Part shown: positions 8,984-37,002 of the stretch, piece by piece
How the letters are laid out: each line of letters opens with the position of its first letter
Position numbering within the stretch: the stretch's first letter is position 1
Origin: a virus
Length of the DNA stretch: 37,907 nucleotides
IMG/VR virus record: IMGVR_UViG_3300020129_000572
Span: 1 to 37,907 of that record
Direction: 5' to 3' (one strand)
The notes under the pieces: generated by a model
Told to the model about the DNA's origin: nothing
Seen by the model: only the letters and a program-made list of their open reading frames with translations
Database searches by the model: none
Position numbers and translations under genes: made by a program

Positions 8984-11248
8984 ATGGCGTACGATCGTTT
9001 CCTTATCGCGCCTCTGAGCTCAGGGCTGCAGACTAACATGAGGCCATGGCTTATCTCTGATGACGCCTTTGCCCAATTGAATAATGCATACCTCTTCAGG
9101 GGACGCGTGCGTAAACGATTCGGGTCACGATTTATGGGAAGCGGGTGGCCTTCCGCCGCCGTAGAGCCTCTCTTTTCTCGCTTCAGAATCGCCCTTGAGG
9201 GCGGCGCTGCAGTGGGAATCACAGACGGAGCAGGCAATGCGGCAGGAACTGTGCCTGGTGCTATCTTCAAGGTAGGCCAGATGTTCTCCATAGGCACCGT
9301 GATGTATACGGTCAACGTAACGGGGACGCCAGCTACCATGCTCGCGACCACGGTGACGCCAACGGCTACGTATGATACATCCAACGGAAATTATGTCTTT
9401 GCAGGCGCGCCCGCTACTACCCAAATCTATTTCTACCCCGGCGAACCAGTAATGGGCCTCACTAATTACCAGGTTGGAGCAATAAATGATCAGCCCTCTT
9501 ACGGATTTGATACCCAATTCGCCTACGTATTCACGGGTGGCTCATGGCAGCGATCGGGCGCTGGCGTAACTCCCATATGGCATGGGGATAATACTAACTT
9601 CTTCTGGACTACTAACTGGTGGGGAACCACCATCGCGATAGACACCCTATATGTATCCAATTTTAATGCCACAATAGGCACTCCGGGTGCTGGCGACGAC
9701 CCCATGTGGACCTTTGACGGAACTACATGGGCCACCTTTACTCCCACCTTCTTGGTCGCTGGCGACAATGTCCAGACCGCGCGAATAGTGATTCCCTTTA
9801 AGAGAAGGTTGTTACTCCTTAACACAATCGAGCAGGACGCGGCCGGAACTACAAATACTGCCTATCCCGCTCGCTGCCGCTATTCTTGGGTAGGAACCCC
9901 CTTAGACGCGAACGCATTTCTCGAAGAAAATCAGGTTGGAGCCGGCGGCGCTGGATTTATAGACGCCACCACCGAAGAGGCCATAGTGAGCGCCGAGTTC
10001 ATTAAAGATCGACTCATCGTCTACTTTGAGAGAAGCACATGGGAGCTAGCGTATACTTTTAATGAAAATGAGCCATTCGTCTGGCAAAAAATTAATACGG
10101 AATTAGGTTCCGAATCTACCTTTTCTACTGTCCCATTTGATAAAGTTATTCTGACGATCGGGAACACAGGTGTCCATGCCTGTAACGGTGCGAACGTTGA
10201 ACGTATCGATACCGATATCCCTGATCAGGTGTTCCAGATCGTCGATAAGAAAGAAGGTGTTTCACGCGTCGCAGGGATACGCGACTACTATGTGGAGATG
10301 GTCTATTGGACCTTCCCCGCAACATACCAGAATCCCTCGGAGGTCTACCCTACTAAAGTACTCGTTTATAATTATCGCACTGGCACTTGGGCGTTTAATG
10401 ATGATTGCATTACAGCTTTCGGCTATTTTGAACAACAGGACGGAGTCACCTGGGCATCCACTACGGAAACGTGGGAGGAGGCCGACTTCACCTGGACCAG
10501 TGGAACAACCGCTGCCCAGTTCAGGCAGGTCATAGCTGGAAACCAGGAGGGGTTCGTCTTTATCGTGGACGCAGATCTGGGTAGAAATGCCCGGGCTATG
10601 CAGCTCACCGATATGGCGAACGTTGTCCCTTCTGGAATCGATCTCACCATCATTGACCACACCCTCAATATCGATGACTATGTCATGATAGAGGGCGCCC
10701 AGGGTGTCACGGGCGTAAACGGTATTATCTGGAATGTAGCTCGCATCATAGACACCGATACCGTTCGTGTTTTTTCCCAAACCGTCCCGTCCCATTTCAC
10801 CGGCACCTACACAGGCGGTGGTTATATTACTCGCGTCTCCAATATCACGATACAGAGTAAGCAGTGGAACCCCTACGATAAGAAGGGCCAGAACGTCTAC
10901 TTAGCCAAGATAGATTTCGGCGTTCAGAAGACGCCAACGGGCGAGATCACGGTAGATTACTATCCCTCCTCTTCTTATGTCCCCATGCTCTATGCAGGGA
11001 GACAGACAGGTACGCTCATGGGCACTGGAATACTAGAGACATTCCCCTACGATCCAGTCTTCTATCCCCTTGAGGCTTACCAGGATAAGCTCTGGCATTC
11101 TATTTACTTCCAGACAGAGGGTGATTGCATTCAGCTTCAGTTCTTCTTTAGCGACGCGCAGATCTCCAATCCAGAGATCGCCTTCGCCGACTTCGAGCTT
11201 GAAGGATTAGTACTCCATACCATGGCCGTAAGCACGAGGTTACAATAA
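8984..11248 (+). CDS. Large tail protein (tail-tube/nozzle or DNA-stabilisation type)
   Basis: A 754-residue beta-rich protein, the largest in the window. It begins MAYDRFLIAPLSSGLQTNMRPWLISDDAFAQ with AYLFRGRVRKRFGSRF, a start I associate with large tail proteins of podophages. The body has many Trp/Tyr-rich strands suggestive of a propeller-like fold (LIVYFERSTWELAYTF, RDYYVEMVYWTFP). Functionally it would match the T7 gp12-like nozzle or the P22 gp10-like plug. The stop overlaps the next ATG (TAATG at 11246-11250), so translation is coupled. No enzymatic motif seen. Confidence 0.75.
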   Translation: MAYDRFLIAPLSSGLQTNMRPWLISDDAFAQLNNAYLFRGRVRKRFGSRFMGSGWPSAAVEPLFSRFRIALEGGAAVGITDGAGNAAGTVPGAIFKVGQMFSIGTVMYTVNVTGTPATMLATTVTPTATYDTSNGNYVFAGAPATTQIYFYPGEPVMGLTNYQVGAINDQPSYGFDTQFAYVFTGGSWQRSGAGVTPIWHGDNTNFFWTTNWWGTTIAIDTLYVSNFNATIGTPGAGDDPMWTFDGTTWATFTPTFLVAGDNVQTARIVIPFKRRLLLLNTIEQDAAGTTNTAYPARCRYSWVGTPLDANAFLEENQVGAGGAGFIDATTEEAIVSAEFIKDRLIVYFERSTWELAYTFNENEPFVWQKINTELGSESTFSTVPFDKVILTIGNTGVHACNGANVERIDTDIPDQVFQIVDKKEGVSRVAGIRDYYVEMVYWTFPATYQNPSEVYPTKVLVYNYRTGTWAFNDDCITAFGYFEQQDGVTWASTTETWEEADFTWTSGTTAAQFRQVIAGNQEGFVFIVDADLGRNARAMQLTDMANVVPSGIDLTIIDHTLNIDDYVMIEGAQGVTGVNGIIWNVARIIDTDTVRVFSQTVPSHFTGTYTGGGYITRVSNITIQSKQWNPYDKKGQNVYLAKIDFGVQKTPTGEITVDYYPSSSYVPMLYAGRQTGTLMGTGILETFPYDPVFYPLEAYQDKLWHSIYFQTEGDCIQLQFFFSDAQISNPEIAFADFELEGLVLHTMAVSTRLQ

Positions 11249-11787
11249 TGCCTAGACTCGGATCTTCTGGATCACTAGTACCTACGACGAATATATGGGA
11301 TGTAGCCCAGTTCTATACGGTCGACATAAAGAGCCCAGAATTCCGGGAGCTTCTCGTTCGGCTCGCCCAGAATATCAATAATATCGTCCTTACGCTCAAC
11401 GTTAAGGACGCTGGTTACTATAATATTTTTGAATTCGTGAATGGGCAGCTATATTTCCCCAACCCAGCATTAGATTCTTCTACCAATGCTAACCCTATAT
11501 TCCGTCCCGTTCTTCGCCTGGTGGTCAATTTTGGGGCCCTTCCCAATACTGCCACGAAGTCAGTCGCGCACAATATCGCCATAACCCCTAGCTACACATT
11601 CACGCGAATCTATGCGACCGCCTCAGATACCGTTAACAAAGTATATATCCCCATACCGTATGCATCGCCTGTTTTAGCGAACAATATCGAGCTTAATGTG
11701 GATGCCACGAACGTTAATATTACTACGGGATCAGATAGGACTAACTTCGACGAATGCTATGTCGTCTTGGAATATATACGAACGTAG
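11248..11787 (+). CDS. Tail-associated structural protein
   Basis: A 179-residue protein translationally coupled to the large tail gene by a TAATG overlap. The N-terminal half is helical (FRELLVRLAQNINNIVLTLNVKDAGYYN). The C-terminal half is beta-rich (SYTFTRIYATASDT, FDECYVVLEYIRT) and resembles small fibre-head or appendage domains. No family recognised. The coupling argues for a partner of the large tail protein in the virion. Confidence 0.72.
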   Translation: MPRLGSSGSLVPTTNIWDVAQFYTVDIKSPEFRELLVRLAQNINNIVLTLNVKDAGYYNIFEFVNGQLYFPNPALDSSTNANPIFRPVLRLVVNFGALPNTATKSVAHNIAITPSYTFTRIYATASDTVNKVYIPIPYASPVLANNIELNVDATNVNITTGSDRTNFDECYVVLEYIRT

Positions 11788-12479: not shown

Positions 12480-13640
12480 ATGCCTCAAATAATAAATGAA
12501 AATCAAAATTTCGGGTCACTGCTCGGTACTGGGCTAGCATCTGGTCTCAACGTGTTAGCCCAGAATAAATTGAACCAGTTCGCAGGACGCCAGCAGCGTA
12601 ATATGACCGCTCAGGGCTTAGCCTCTTTAGGGATCCCAGAGCAGAATGCGATGCAGATAGCAGGACTTCCTGAAAAACTACAGGAGCTCGTGGTAAAGAA
12701 CTATCTCGCAGCCGCTGAAAGCCAGGGCCTTAACGAAGCGTTAGCAGCTCTATCGGGCGAGCCTCAGCAGCAACAGCTACCTGGTGCTCAGAATTTCTAT
12801 CAGCAGGCAGCGCCGCAGCAGAATCCACAGCTTTCAGCCCTACAGAATCTTATCTCTTCTGGCCAGGGCGTTACTCCTGAAGCATTTGGTCAGCAGTTAT
12901 CACAGGGCGCATCGCAGGCTCCTCAGGCTCAGGCTCCTAAGGGTGGCGTGATTCCTACGTACAACGATCCTCAGCAGAGAGCAGAAAGACAGAAAAGCTT
13001 CGCCGATATACTAAAGACTGCTCGAATTTCACCGGAGCATAAGTTGAAACTAGCAGCGATGCAGCAGTCTCAGAAGCTCGAGAAAGAGAAGCTAAGCGCC
13101 AAGGAGCAGCAGATTGTTAATCAGGAAACAAAGCCCCTGTATGACGAAATTACTAAGGGAGCTCGGGCCGCTCAGAATAACAATAAGAGGCTCGACCGCA
13201 TGGAAGAGTTGGCGAAGCGTGGGAACTTAACCTATCCCCTTTTTGCCAGCGCGCTAGAAACTCTCTCCAATGGAATATTCGGATTCGGCATCGATCTTAC
13301 TGCGCTTCTCCATCAGGATTCCCAGGAATTCAGGAAGCTCAGTAACGATTTCCTTAAGGATGCGAAGGACACCTTCGGCTCTCGCCTCACCAATTACGAT
13401 GTTAAAACCTTCCTCTCCACCGTCCCCACCCTTTCCCAGAGTCACTTGGGTAAGCTGCGCGTTATCAATAACCTGCGCTCATTTAATGAAGCGGCGCTAC
13501 TTCGCAAGAAAGCTATGGATAAGATTATTCAAGATAATGGCGGCAGGCGTCCGGCCAATCTGGATGTACTGGTCGAAGAAAGAATCTCTCCCCAGCTTGA
13601 TGTGCTAGCCGAGAAGTTTAAATCTGGTGAAAAGATCTGA
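12480..13640 (+). CDS. Probable internal virion (ejection) protein, Gln-rich
   Basis: A 386-residue, largely helical protein. The N-terminus is Gly/Leu rich (FGSLLGTGLASGLNVLAQNK). Residues about 85-155 are strongly Gln/Pro/Ala rich (PQQQQLPGAQ, QQAAPQQNPQ) and likely disordered. A charged helical stretch follows (HKLKLAAMQQSQKLEKEKLSAKEQQ) and a folded C-terminus (LDRMEELAKRGNLTYPLF, DFLKDAKDTFGSRLT). Extended helical composition and the pairing with the gene at 11853 match podovirus ejection proteins that build a trans-envelope conduit. Much shorter than T7 gp16. No lysozyme domain seen. GGAGAG lies before the ATG. Confidence 0.65.
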   Translation: MPQIINENQNFGSLLGTGLASGLNVLAQNKLNQFAGRQQRNMTAQGLASLGIPEQNAMQIAGLPEKLQELVVKNYLAAAESQGLNEALAALSGEPQQQQLPGAQNFYQQAAPQQNPQLSALQNLISSGQGVTPEAFGQQLSQGASQAPQAQAPKGGVIPTYNDPQQRAERQKSFADILKTARISPEHKLKLAAMQQSQKLEKEKLSAKEQQIVNQETKPLYDEITKGARAAQNNNKRLDRMEELAKRGNLTYPLFASALETLSNGIFGFGIDLTALLHQDSQEFRKLSNDFLKDAKDTFGSRLTNYDVKTFLSTVPTLSQSHLGKLRVINNLRSFNEAALLRKKAMDKIIQDNGGRRPANLDVLVEERISPQLDVLAEKFKSGEKI

Positions 13641-13847
13641 TTATATTCTTTTCAGGACATATACGAGAAGGCATATGGCCCATACGAGGGGATTTAGTGC
13701 AAGGACTAGGGCCATTACAAAGGCTACCGAGGGAACGAGCAAGAATAGCTGCAAAGCCATTGTGAGCGGACCCGATAGAACATAAGCTCCCACCAGTACT
13801 CCCACTAGGAATATGATGATCTTTATTAATTCTTCACGGTCACTCAT
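13641..13847 (-). CDS. Small, very hydrophobic membrane protein paired with an RHH regulator
   Basis: A 68-residue protein with a short charged start (MSDREELIK) and hydrophobic segments at about 8-25, 29-51 and 54-65, ending in KRI; two or three membrane passes. Its ATG overlaps the end of the upstream ribbon-helix-helix gene by 8 bp, so the two are translated together. The pair runs against the late genes around it. Possible roles are a holin timed by its own repressor, or the toxin of a toxin-antitoxin-like pair; the sequence cannot tell these apart. The stop at 13641 abuts the stop of the convergent ejection gene at 13640 with no terminator between. Confidence 0.75.
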   Translation of the reverse strand: MSDREELIKIIIFLVGVLVGAYVLSGPLTMALQLFLLVPSVAFVMALVLALNPLVWAICLLVYVLKRI

Positions 13848-14001
13848 AGTACCTCTCCTGGCTTATCGCCCTCCGTATCACCTGTATAAGGTAGGAGGTG
13901 ATAGTGCAGTAGCGCCTGTCAGCAATCACCTTAAGCTCTTTGTGTAGTACAAGCGGCAAATCAACTGCCAATCTCTTCTTACTTGCGCGCTTTTTATACA
14001 T
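13840..14001 (-). CDS. Ribbon-helix-helix DNA-binding protein (Arc/CopG-like)
   Basis: A 53-residue protein that reads MYKKRASKKRLAVDLP and then two helices: LVLHKELKVIADRRY (about 17-31) and SYLIQVIRRAISQERYYE (about 36-53), split by CTIT. A basic strand with alternating residues (KRLAVDL) followed by two helices is the RHH fold of Arc, CopG and many antitoxins. GGGAGGTT lies six bases before the ATG. A perfect palindrome, TGTACAC-GAT-GTGTACA (14027-14043), lies inside the promoter just upstream, as expected for autoregulation. The gene overlaps the hydrophobic protein gene by 8 bp. Confidence 0.82.
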   Translation of the reverse strand: MYKKRASKKRLAVDLPLVLHKELKVIADRRYCTITSYLIQVIRRAISQERYYE

Positions 14002-14024
14002 TTCGCAACCTCCCTATTAGAAAT

Positions 14025-14052
14025 ATTGTACACGATGTGTACATATAGTCAA
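14025..14052 (-). promoter_or_regulatory. Leftward promoter with embedded palindromic operator
   Basis: Read on the minus strand, TTGACT (14052-14047) and TACAAT (14030-14025) are separated by 16 bp; each matches the sigma70 consensus at five of six bases. The palindrome TGTACAC-GAT-GTGTACA fills the spacer and overlaps the -10 box, so a bound dimer pair would block polymerase. The natural ligand is the RHH protein encoded 24 bp downstream. The rest of 14002-14127 has only a small stem-loop (14092-14110). Confidence 0.7.
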
Positions 14053-14127: not shown

Positions 14128-14907
14128 GTGAGCGTAGCACAGTTCCAACAGGTCTCGTATGGCCTTACACAGGCCCTGATACCAGAGCCCCCATTATCTA
14201 TAATTTCCCGCCGAAACCCGACCGCTAATGATAAGGCGCAGATAGGGACCCAGTGGGTGAATAGCGCCACCAATTCCTATTTCGTTTTAACATCCATAGT
14301 CGCCAATGTGGCTACATGGGCATCGGCAGGAACGGGCGCTGGTGTATTCTTCTCCCTTGAGGCAACGGGTGGAAACATCACTGCTGACCTAGGAAATATT
14401 ATCGCTACGGCTGGCGACATTGTGGCAACCGCTGGAGATATCAACGCTGTAGCTGGCTCGGTGAATGCTGGCACGGATGTAAACGCCACTAATGATGTAA
14501 CCGCTGGCAATGACGTAGTGGCAGACCAGAATATTACTGCTACCAACGGCGACATAACGGCTGCTGCTGGAAATATTGTGGCTACGGCTGGCAATATAGT
14601 TGCCACAGCTGGCGATATTACTGCAACGGCAGGAAGCATCACGGCTGGCACGGATCTAATTGCCGATGTGGATATCACCTCTACGACGGGTAACATAGTC
14701 GCGACCTTGGGCAATATAGAGGCCAGCGCGGGTCACTTCATAGTGAATGGTGTCAGCATCCTTTCGGGAACTGGCGATCCGAACACGGTAGTGAACGCTC
14801 CTCAAGGCTCGTTGTACCTCAATGACGCGGGTTCTGCTATTAATGACCGCGCATGGATAAACATCGATGGTGCCACAGCGTGGACATTTATTACAACCGG
14901 CGCTTAG
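14128..14907 (+). CDS. Tail fibre/adhesin with beta-solenoid heptad repeats
   Basis: A 259-residue protein with a GTG start seven bases after AAAGGAG. Residues about 22-72 form an N-terminal module (PTANDKAQIGTQWVNSATN, then VANVATW) that is related to the starts of the fibres at 20698 and 22383, probably a tail-attachment domain. Residues about 79-205 are a run of some 18 six- or seven-residue repeats of the form G-[DN]-I-x-A-T-A, a pattern that builds a narrow beta-solenoid in adhesins. The end (NAPQGSLYLNDAGSAINDRAWIN) looks like a fibre tip or trimerisation cap. First gene of the fibre region. Confidence 0.8.
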   Translation: MSVAQFQQVSYGLTQALIPEPPLSIISRRNPTANDKAQIGTQWVNSATNSYFVLTSIVANVATWASAGTGAGVFFSLEATGGNITADLGNIIATAGDIVATAGDINAVAGSVNAGTDVNATNDVTAGNDVVADQNITATNGDITAAAGNIVATAGNIVATAGDITATAGSITAGTDLIADVDITSTTGNIVATLGNIEASAGHFIVNGVSILSGTGDPNTVVNAPQGSLYLNDAGSAINDRAWINIDGATAWTFITTGA

Positions 14908-36394: not shown

Positions 36395-36428
36395 CCCCGG
36401 ATTAACGTCCGGGGTTTTTATTTATTTT
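36395..36428 (+). terminator. Rho-independent terminator
   Basis: CCCCGGA (36395-36401) pairs with TCCGGGG (36408-36414) over a 6-nt loop, then TTTTTATTTATTTT. It ends the rightward unit and reaches into the last bases of the convergent CYTH gene. Confidence 0.9.
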
Positions 36429-37002
36429 GCTTTCTGCGAGCCAATGCGCCTTCCGTTAATCTCGGTATCGCATTGAGTTCTTCTTTGGTGATACCATATT
36501 CCATGGAATAGAGCTCCGCTATACCCCCTTCGAATCTCGAAGGCAATTTCAATAGCTTCTCTGTATATTGTATTCCTTCTTCATCAGCTGCTTCTATCTC
36601 TAGTAATGGCTTCAATCCAGGCCAATAATCAAGGGATATTAATATCCTATTCCCCTCTGGGCAGAAGATTATCCATTCAGCGCGCTTAGTCTCCTGGAGG
36701 GAGCCTTTGGGGTATCCCAATAGGCGGAATATACATGCTAGAGGCTCCAAGAGGCGGCGCCCTTCAAAGATTATTGTTTTTTCGAGCGTCCCTCGTATTT
36801 TCTTGGGATCCCTTATGTGCTTTACTGTAATTTCCGTAGACATCGCACATTCACGAACTCTTAAAAACGCTCCGGGCTTGTCTTTAATATCCCACACCAT
36901 GCGCTTATATTTCTTGAGAGGAGTCCATACACGCCCCCTGAGCGCTCTACGAACCACATCTACATCAATATCATAATATCGAGCCTCTATTTCAACCTTC
37001 AT
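36418..37002 (-). CDS. CYTH-domain protein (triphosphate tunnel metalloenzyme)
   Basis: A 194-residue protein of the CYTH superfamily (class IV adenylate cyclase CyaB, thiamine triphosphatase, inorganic triphosphatase). Seen: VEIEARY at 3-9 (signature ExExK with Arg in place of Lys), LRVRE at 47-51, TVKH at 59-62, ETKRAEW at 104-110, and LDYWPGLKPLLEIEA at 124-138. These charged residues line the tunnel and bind the triphosphate and Mg2+. Substrate cannot be told from sequence. A phage copy is uncommon. GGGGTGA precedes the ATG. It is a lone minus gene between the late terminator and a divergent promoter region. Confidence 0.88.
   Translation of the reverse strand: MKVEIEARYYDIDVDVVRRALRGRVWTPLKKYKRMVWDIKDKPGAFLRVRECAMSTEITVKHIRDPKKIRGTLEKTIIFEGRRLLEPLACIFRLLGYPKGSLQETKRAEWIIFCPEGNRILISLDYWPGLKPLLEIEAADEEGIQYTEKLLKLPSRFEGGIAELYSMEYGITKEELNAIPRLTEGALARRKQNK

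Follow-up and report, generated by a model that had tools for sequence, protein, structure and literature searches.

A putative self-regulated accessory cassette with exchangeable cargo among the late genes of an uncultivated phage family

Two small genes read against the late genes of an uncultivated phage appear to form a self-regulated accessory ('moron') cassette that would deliver, from a fixed site of the late region, an early pulse of exchangeable, envelope-acting and probably superinfection-excluding cargo, a reading to which we give about an even chance. The window, i.e. the whole stretch of DNA that was analysed, corresponds to a 37,907-base virus record of IMG/VR with a GC content of 50.1%. 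Direct support exists for the gene structure, the ribbon-helix-helix (RHH) family of the first protein, the conservation of the operator and of the slot, the exchange of the cargo and purifying selection.

Organization of the cassette

The two open reading frames were found as predicted, a gene for an RHH protein and a gene for a small hydrophobic protein that overlap by 8 nt, the junction TATGAGTGA comprising the RHH stop codon and the next ATG. Both are antisense to the late genes and occupy a slot between a 386-aa late gene and a tail-fibre-type gene (Table 1). There are 0 bases between the end of the membrane-protein gene and the convergent 386-aa gene, and a gap of 126 bp, in which no forward promoter could be identified, lies between the RHH gene start and the tail-fibre gene, which is divergent from it. 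In comparison with relatives, non-synonymous differences per site are fewer than synonymous ones in the RHH gene (pN 0.31, pS 0.82) and in both cargo genes (pN 0.43, pS 0.69 for the membrane-protein gene of the window). Both genes of the window look like they encode real proteins.

The shared promoter is also present, with TTGACT at 14052-14047, a spacer of 16 nt and TACAAT at 14030-14025 on the minus strand. A perfect palindrome had been described as covering the spacer and the -10 element. It does lie within the promoter, but it overlaps 13 of the 16 spacer bases and four of the six bases of the -10. The exact motif TGTACAC-N3-GTGTACA has a single occurrence in the window; a 7+7 palindrome by itself is not rare for 38 kb, and the weight of this one comes from its position and its conservation. 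Reading it as a terminator-like RNA hairpin was considered and set aside because it is located upstream of the expected transcript start. The predicted layout, in which an RHH protein with a palindromic operator in its own promoter is coupled to a membrane protein and runs against the late genes, is thus supported at the level of sequence.

Table 1. Features of the cassette and of its flanks in the window
Feature	Positions	Strand	Basis or remark
RHH (Arc-like) repressor gene, 53 aa	13840-14001	-	ORF, starts MYKKRASKKRLAVDLP; phrog_582 and profile matches
Small hydrophobic membrane-protein gene (cargo), 68 aa	13641-13847	-	ORF, starts MSDREELIKIIIFLVG
Sigma-70-like promoter TTGACT-N16-TACAAT, upstream of RHH gene and cargo	14025-14052	-	10/12 consensus
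Operator-like perfect palindrome TGTACAC-GAT-GTGTACA	14027-14043	no strand	Also kept in relatives
Late gene, 386 aa, left flank of the slot	12480-13640	+	Convergent with the cassette; ejection-type role suggested by position only
Tail-fibre-type gene, right flank of the slot	14128-14907	+	Divergent from the RHH gene

The RHH protein and its operator

The RHH protein of the window matches the family phrog_582 'Arc-like repressor' (E 1.4e-4), which matches 15 of 36 RHH proteins from the slot. The best PDB match of a profile of these 36 sequences is P22 Arc, with an E-value of 2.5e-6 for the stabilised MYL variant and of 0.22 for the wild type. In the same way, hhalign comparison of the slot RHH profile gave E 2.1e-5 for Arc and E 2.3e-4 for Mnt. 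The Arc query sequence used matches P22 record X01916 at 100%. In the AlphaFold2 model (pLDDT 90), an extended N-terminus is followed by helices at residues 17-29 and 34-52, in agreement with the Arc/MetJ/CopG fold, whose core of about 45 residues consists of an N-terminal strand and two helices. The protein was modelled as a monomer, in which the strand residues are extended, their pairing requiring a dimer. Foldseek placed the RHH proteins MatP, CopA-SO, Arc, ParG and PutA in the top ranks, with all matches at E > 0.03 and none reaching E 0.001. Because the RHH superfamily has many members, the likeness to Arc is no proof of orthology. Single members of the slot set match ParD, HicB, FitA or CopG antitoxin models. 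The fold occupies almost all of the 53 residues and no toxin-binding tail is visible.

Signals upstream of the RHH gene are shared across the family. In the 125-bp regions preceding 39 distinct RHH genes, TGTACA was counted 15 times versus 1.85 expected from approximate dinucleotide shuffles (n=200, maximum 8). In these homologous regions, promoter scores at 8-45 bp from the RHH start are above those of mononucleotide shuffles (mean 9.13 vs 8.06), and dyads within these promoters also exceed shuffles (5.24 vs 3.71, p about 3e-9). Operator variants among relatives include TTGCACAATTGTGCAA, ATGTACAATTGTACAT and TGCACATTTGTGCA. The four related contigs described below (G001-G004) carry TGTACAC-ATG-GTGTACA at the same position in a promoter region that is otherwise diverged (three aligned: G001, G002 and G004). 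Since the window, the near-complete G001 and G004 and the 18.6-kb fragment G002 hold one full operator each, the RHH protein looks like a local regulator. The conserved dyad and promoter suggest an autorepressor that would bind the dyad in its own promoter.

Exchange of the cargo among close relatives

Four IMG/VR contigs contain, in the same slot, an RHH protein 57% identical to that of the window. Their relationship to the window is close, the capsid protein being 100% identical in G001, G002 and G004 and the portal 92-93% identical in G001, G003 and G004. Nevertheless, the partner found at the overlap position in G002-G004 is a 96-aa membrane protein (MSEIE...), and the near-complete G004 is devoid of the window's membrane protein (P0001). 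The cassette of G001 contains a 95-aa version of the 96-aa gene and then, as a third gene, a homologue of the 68-aa protein (37% identity, E 2e-11). The window carries solely the homologue of this third gene, without the 95/96-aa gene. At the DNA level, G001 and G002 are 97-98% identical over the promoter and the RHH gene and about 70% identical in the next gene; they then differ by a whole gene in the cargo before identity returns to 91-95% in the late gene. The identity breaks sharply at the junction between RHH gene and cargo. From these alignments, the RHH gene and its promoter appear as the constant part, behind which the cargo is exchanged between phages.

Census of the slot

A profile of the 178/179-aa protein encoded at 11248-11787 retrieved at least 136 IMG/VR relatives, of which 80 were fetched, and the slot was located by profile searches with the late gene, the tail-fibre N-terminus and the RHH protein. 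The flanks are a late gene of about 400 aa on one side and the tail-fibre gene on the other. Both flanks are visible in 38 records (window counted), and in 37 of these an RHH gene lies antisense between them, in most cases at a distance of 85-165 bp from where the tail-fibre gene starts. The 38th, L059, has an RHH-like ORF (RSRLFVDL..., E 3.6e-5 in a one-sequence test), a weak match of 10 bits. As some records are near-copies, the 40 distinct RHH sequences give a fairer count. Among the corresponding cassettes, 29 encode one or more small proteins for which a membrane segment is predicted, six have other cargo with no such segment and five have no cargo. Membrane proteins account for 31 of 44 small SD-preceded ORFs in the slot versus 20 of 146 elsewhere (Fisher p 1.7e-12). 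Conserved co-occurrence, whose lack would have refuted the original prediction, is seen for the RHH protein and small membrane proteins as a class, but not for a single fixed partner. Several members share an overlap junction, TATGAGTGA or TATGAATGA, which encodes the C-terminal YE of the RHH protein and the cargo start.

Cargo of other kinds comprises HNH endonucleases, coiled-coil proteins that are secreted, and a soluble protein about 100 aa long. HNH endonuclease genes were noted in the RHH-headed slot of L073, L075, L077, L079, L100 and L071, while the slots of L051, L054, L068 and L072 contain short proteins in which a zinc-ribbon-like part is joined to a membrane helix.

Searches with the 68-aa membrane protein gave no match in Pfam or PHROGs at a usable threshold and no toxin-antitoxin or PADLOC match; it is predicted to be all-helical, at low confidence. 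The single-protein scan of IMG/VR returned nothing for it and the alignment scan only the G001 homologue, while no relative of either the RHH or the membrane protein was found among INPHARED phages. When Pfam and PHROGs were searched with 55 cargo proteins, HNH endonucleases, one RecE-like match and scattered weak matches were obtained; apart from the HNH endonucleases, no clear known functional family was found. No endolysin or spanin domain was detected in any cargo set, and comparisons of cargo with cargo and of cargo with SieA (one SieA-like sequence used) were negative. No host or prophage copies were found in 84,980 genomes scanned with the RHH protein and with a tail protein. The window proteins that were scanned included no recognisable endolysin, holin, spanin, integrase or CI-type repressor.

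Proposed function

After entry, host RNA polymerase would read the strong sigma-70-like antisense promoter into a short bicistronic RNA. Translation would begin with the RHH protein, and the 8-nt overlap would couple synthesis of the membrane protein to it. A dimer or tetramer of the RHH protein would then bind the palindrome in the promoter and switch the operon off, so that expression would be limited to a brief early pulse, and opposing late transcription would later strengthen this shut-off. The membrane protein would insert into the host inner membrane and most likely block DNA entry of a second, related phage, i.e. superinfection exclusion comparable to that of P22 SieA. In this sequence of events we infer the DNA binding, the timing, the translational coupling and the function of the cargo.

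Besides the lack of detectable similarity of the cargo to SieA or, HNH endonucleases apart, to a clear known functional family, two observations count against this proposal. The five cargo-free cassettes and the six without membrane segment imply that exclusion cannot be the sole reason why the RHH gene is kept. In addition, given that neither an integrase nor a CI-type repressor was recognised and that the genome scans found no relative, there is no obvious lysogen to which exclusion would be of benefit, and exclusion would need to operate in lytic growth. A more specific form of the proposal, which we advance tentatively and hold to be somewhat doubtful, is a plug-in site, where a constant RHH gene with its operator-promoter drives an early pulse of swapped envelope proteins in phages that may be non-lysogenising; the fixed overlap junction this involves is found in some members only. 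If true, each phage would carry its own exclusion or host-membrane effector and the slot would amount to a natural library of new small proteins for superinfection exclusion or host takeover. The simple rule of the RHH-headed slot should lead to dozens of unstudied small membrane proteins whose likely targets are the host envelope or competing phages.

Alternative explanations

The main rival to an accessory cassette places the function in the neighbouring gene: the RHH protein and its promoter would mainly set the level or timing of the tail-fibre gene, by a roadblock or by colliding antisense transcription, and the cargo would be incidental. It would account for an RHH gene that is nearly universal next to cargo that varies or is absent, and for an operator located about 85-100 bp upstream of the tail-fibre start. 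Similarly, the ant moron of P22 is thought to affect the tailspike level by limiting late read-through (PMC2629481). Nevertheless, the strong enrichment of membrane proteins and the purifying selection on cargo genes indicate that the cargo is not neutral. Moreover, the operator sits within the antisense promoter and the gap yielded no forward promoter. We consider this explanation rather unlikely, and it may also operate alongside a function of the cargo.

The original prediction had favoured a toxin-antitoxin pair or a self-timed holin, and the exchange of cargo behind a constant RHH gene conflicts with both. An RHH antitoxin with a membrane toxin would fit the gene order, the overlap and the autoregulatory layout, which resemble type II systems, as well as the matches of single slot RHH proteins to antitoxin models. 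However, the partner is of no constant family and changes from phage to phage behind an RHH protein that is nearly the same, it has no match among toxin-antitoxin systems, and RHH-only cassettes exist (5/40). The fold fills almost the whole protein and leaves no visible toxin-binding tail, and the pair keeps a single place on the phage core map instead of being mobile. A toxin-antitoxin function is accordingly judged very improbable. As for lysis, the membrane protein could be the holin or antiholin of a self-timed cassette: the proteins are small and hydrophobic, sub-threshold matches to Pfam Phage_holin_3_6 (E 0.64) and phrog_4325 (E 0.12) were obtained, and the window has no other recognised holin or endolysin. 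Yet an essential lysis gene should not be missing or replaced among phages with a fully identical capsid protein, and membrane cargo is missing in 11 of the 40 cassettes. The cargo lacks endolysin and spanin domains as well as holin family matches, and an alternative candidate located at 939-1190 is 72-73% identical in both near-complete relatives. We thus regard the holin reading as improbable.

Other genes of the window

The alternative holin candidate is an 83-aa hydrophobic protein that belongs to a second antisense block (939-2936, minus strand), together with three proteins with signal-peptide-like N-termini. All proteins of this block are kept in relatives (36-73% identity) and none has a family match. 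A 194-aa protein (36418-37002, minus strand) has 40-42% identity in relatives and matches no Pfam family at E 0.1; to the eye, its N-terminal part may recall that of CYTH-type phosphatases.

In 10 of 59 relatives, the 178/179-aa tail protein is encoded on the opposite strand to the late gene next to it; homologues noted are L043, L058, L060, L068-L071, L081, L104 and L107. On a quick late-gene tree, the strand of this gene requires eight changes by parsimony, at least three of which are forced by well-supported branches, so that single-gene inversion seems recurrent. No long perfect inverted repeats surround the gene in the five loci examined. Neither the 178-aa protein nor a 754-aa tail protein has a solved-structure match, and the latter has no match in INPHARED. 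Phmmer matches of the capsid protein (T4 lysozyme, E about 0.02) were treated as chance.

Comparison with known systems

Type II toxin-antitoxin systems of the ParD, FitA or CopG type share with the cassette an RHH gene in first position, a layout of autoregulation and an overlapping second gene. They differ from it in that the partner here is exchangeable and belongs to no family, RHH-only versions exist in the slot family, no toxin-binding tail is visible and the genomic slot is fixed. The immI or 'ant moron' slot of P22, absent from the original prediction, is a better frame, and by analogy the slot resembles the P22 immunity and exclusion region rather than a toxin-antitoxin pair.

In P22-type genomes, the order is ejection genes 7-20-16, sieA (-), mnt (-), arc (+), ant (+) and tailspike, and P22-like phages carry the mnt/arc RHH repressors and sieA between gene 16 and the tailspike gene 9. 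In some P22-like phages this slot holds just mnt and one unknown gene (PMC2629481). The RHH gene of the window has the position of mnt and the membrane-protein gene that of sieA. Both slots are located between the last preceding late gene, in the window a gene whose ejection role is suggested by its place, and the receptor-binding tail gene. Both have RHH repressors with overlapping operator and promoter, a membrane-protein gene with its own promoter opposite to the late-gene strand, and a highly variable gene content. This variation and the predicted promoter would make the cassette, like immI, an independently expressed region of variable content. On the other hand, the window has one RHH gene and not an mnt/arc pair, the slot contains no ant, the RHH gene is directly coupled to the cargo and the cargo is not SieA-like. 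By analogy, the cassette would function like the ant moron, yet it lacks features that define immI.

The individual proteins compare in a similar manner. The RHH protein shares with Arc its 53 residues, its fold, an autoregulated layout and a profile match, whereas its gene is oriented opposite to the tail gene, as is mnt in P22, its operator consists of TGTACA-type dyads and it is predicted to control the cargo rather than ant. The membrane protein, like SieA, is predicted to have several hydrophobic helices and has its gene in the same slot, antisense to the late genes, but it has 68 residues versus about 162 and no detectable similarity. Virion homology to P22 was not found either: 11 late-protein family profiles gave no convincing match, the portal and terminase profiles consisting of 2-4 sequences, and the 386-aa late protein has no detectable similarity to P22 gp7, gp20 or gp16. 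The likeness between the two slots may reflect common ancestry or the independent use of a tolerant position. In either case, the logic of the P22 ant moron would extend to a large family of uncultivated phages that show no detectable sequence similarity to P22 and in which the regulator is retained and the cargo is swapped.
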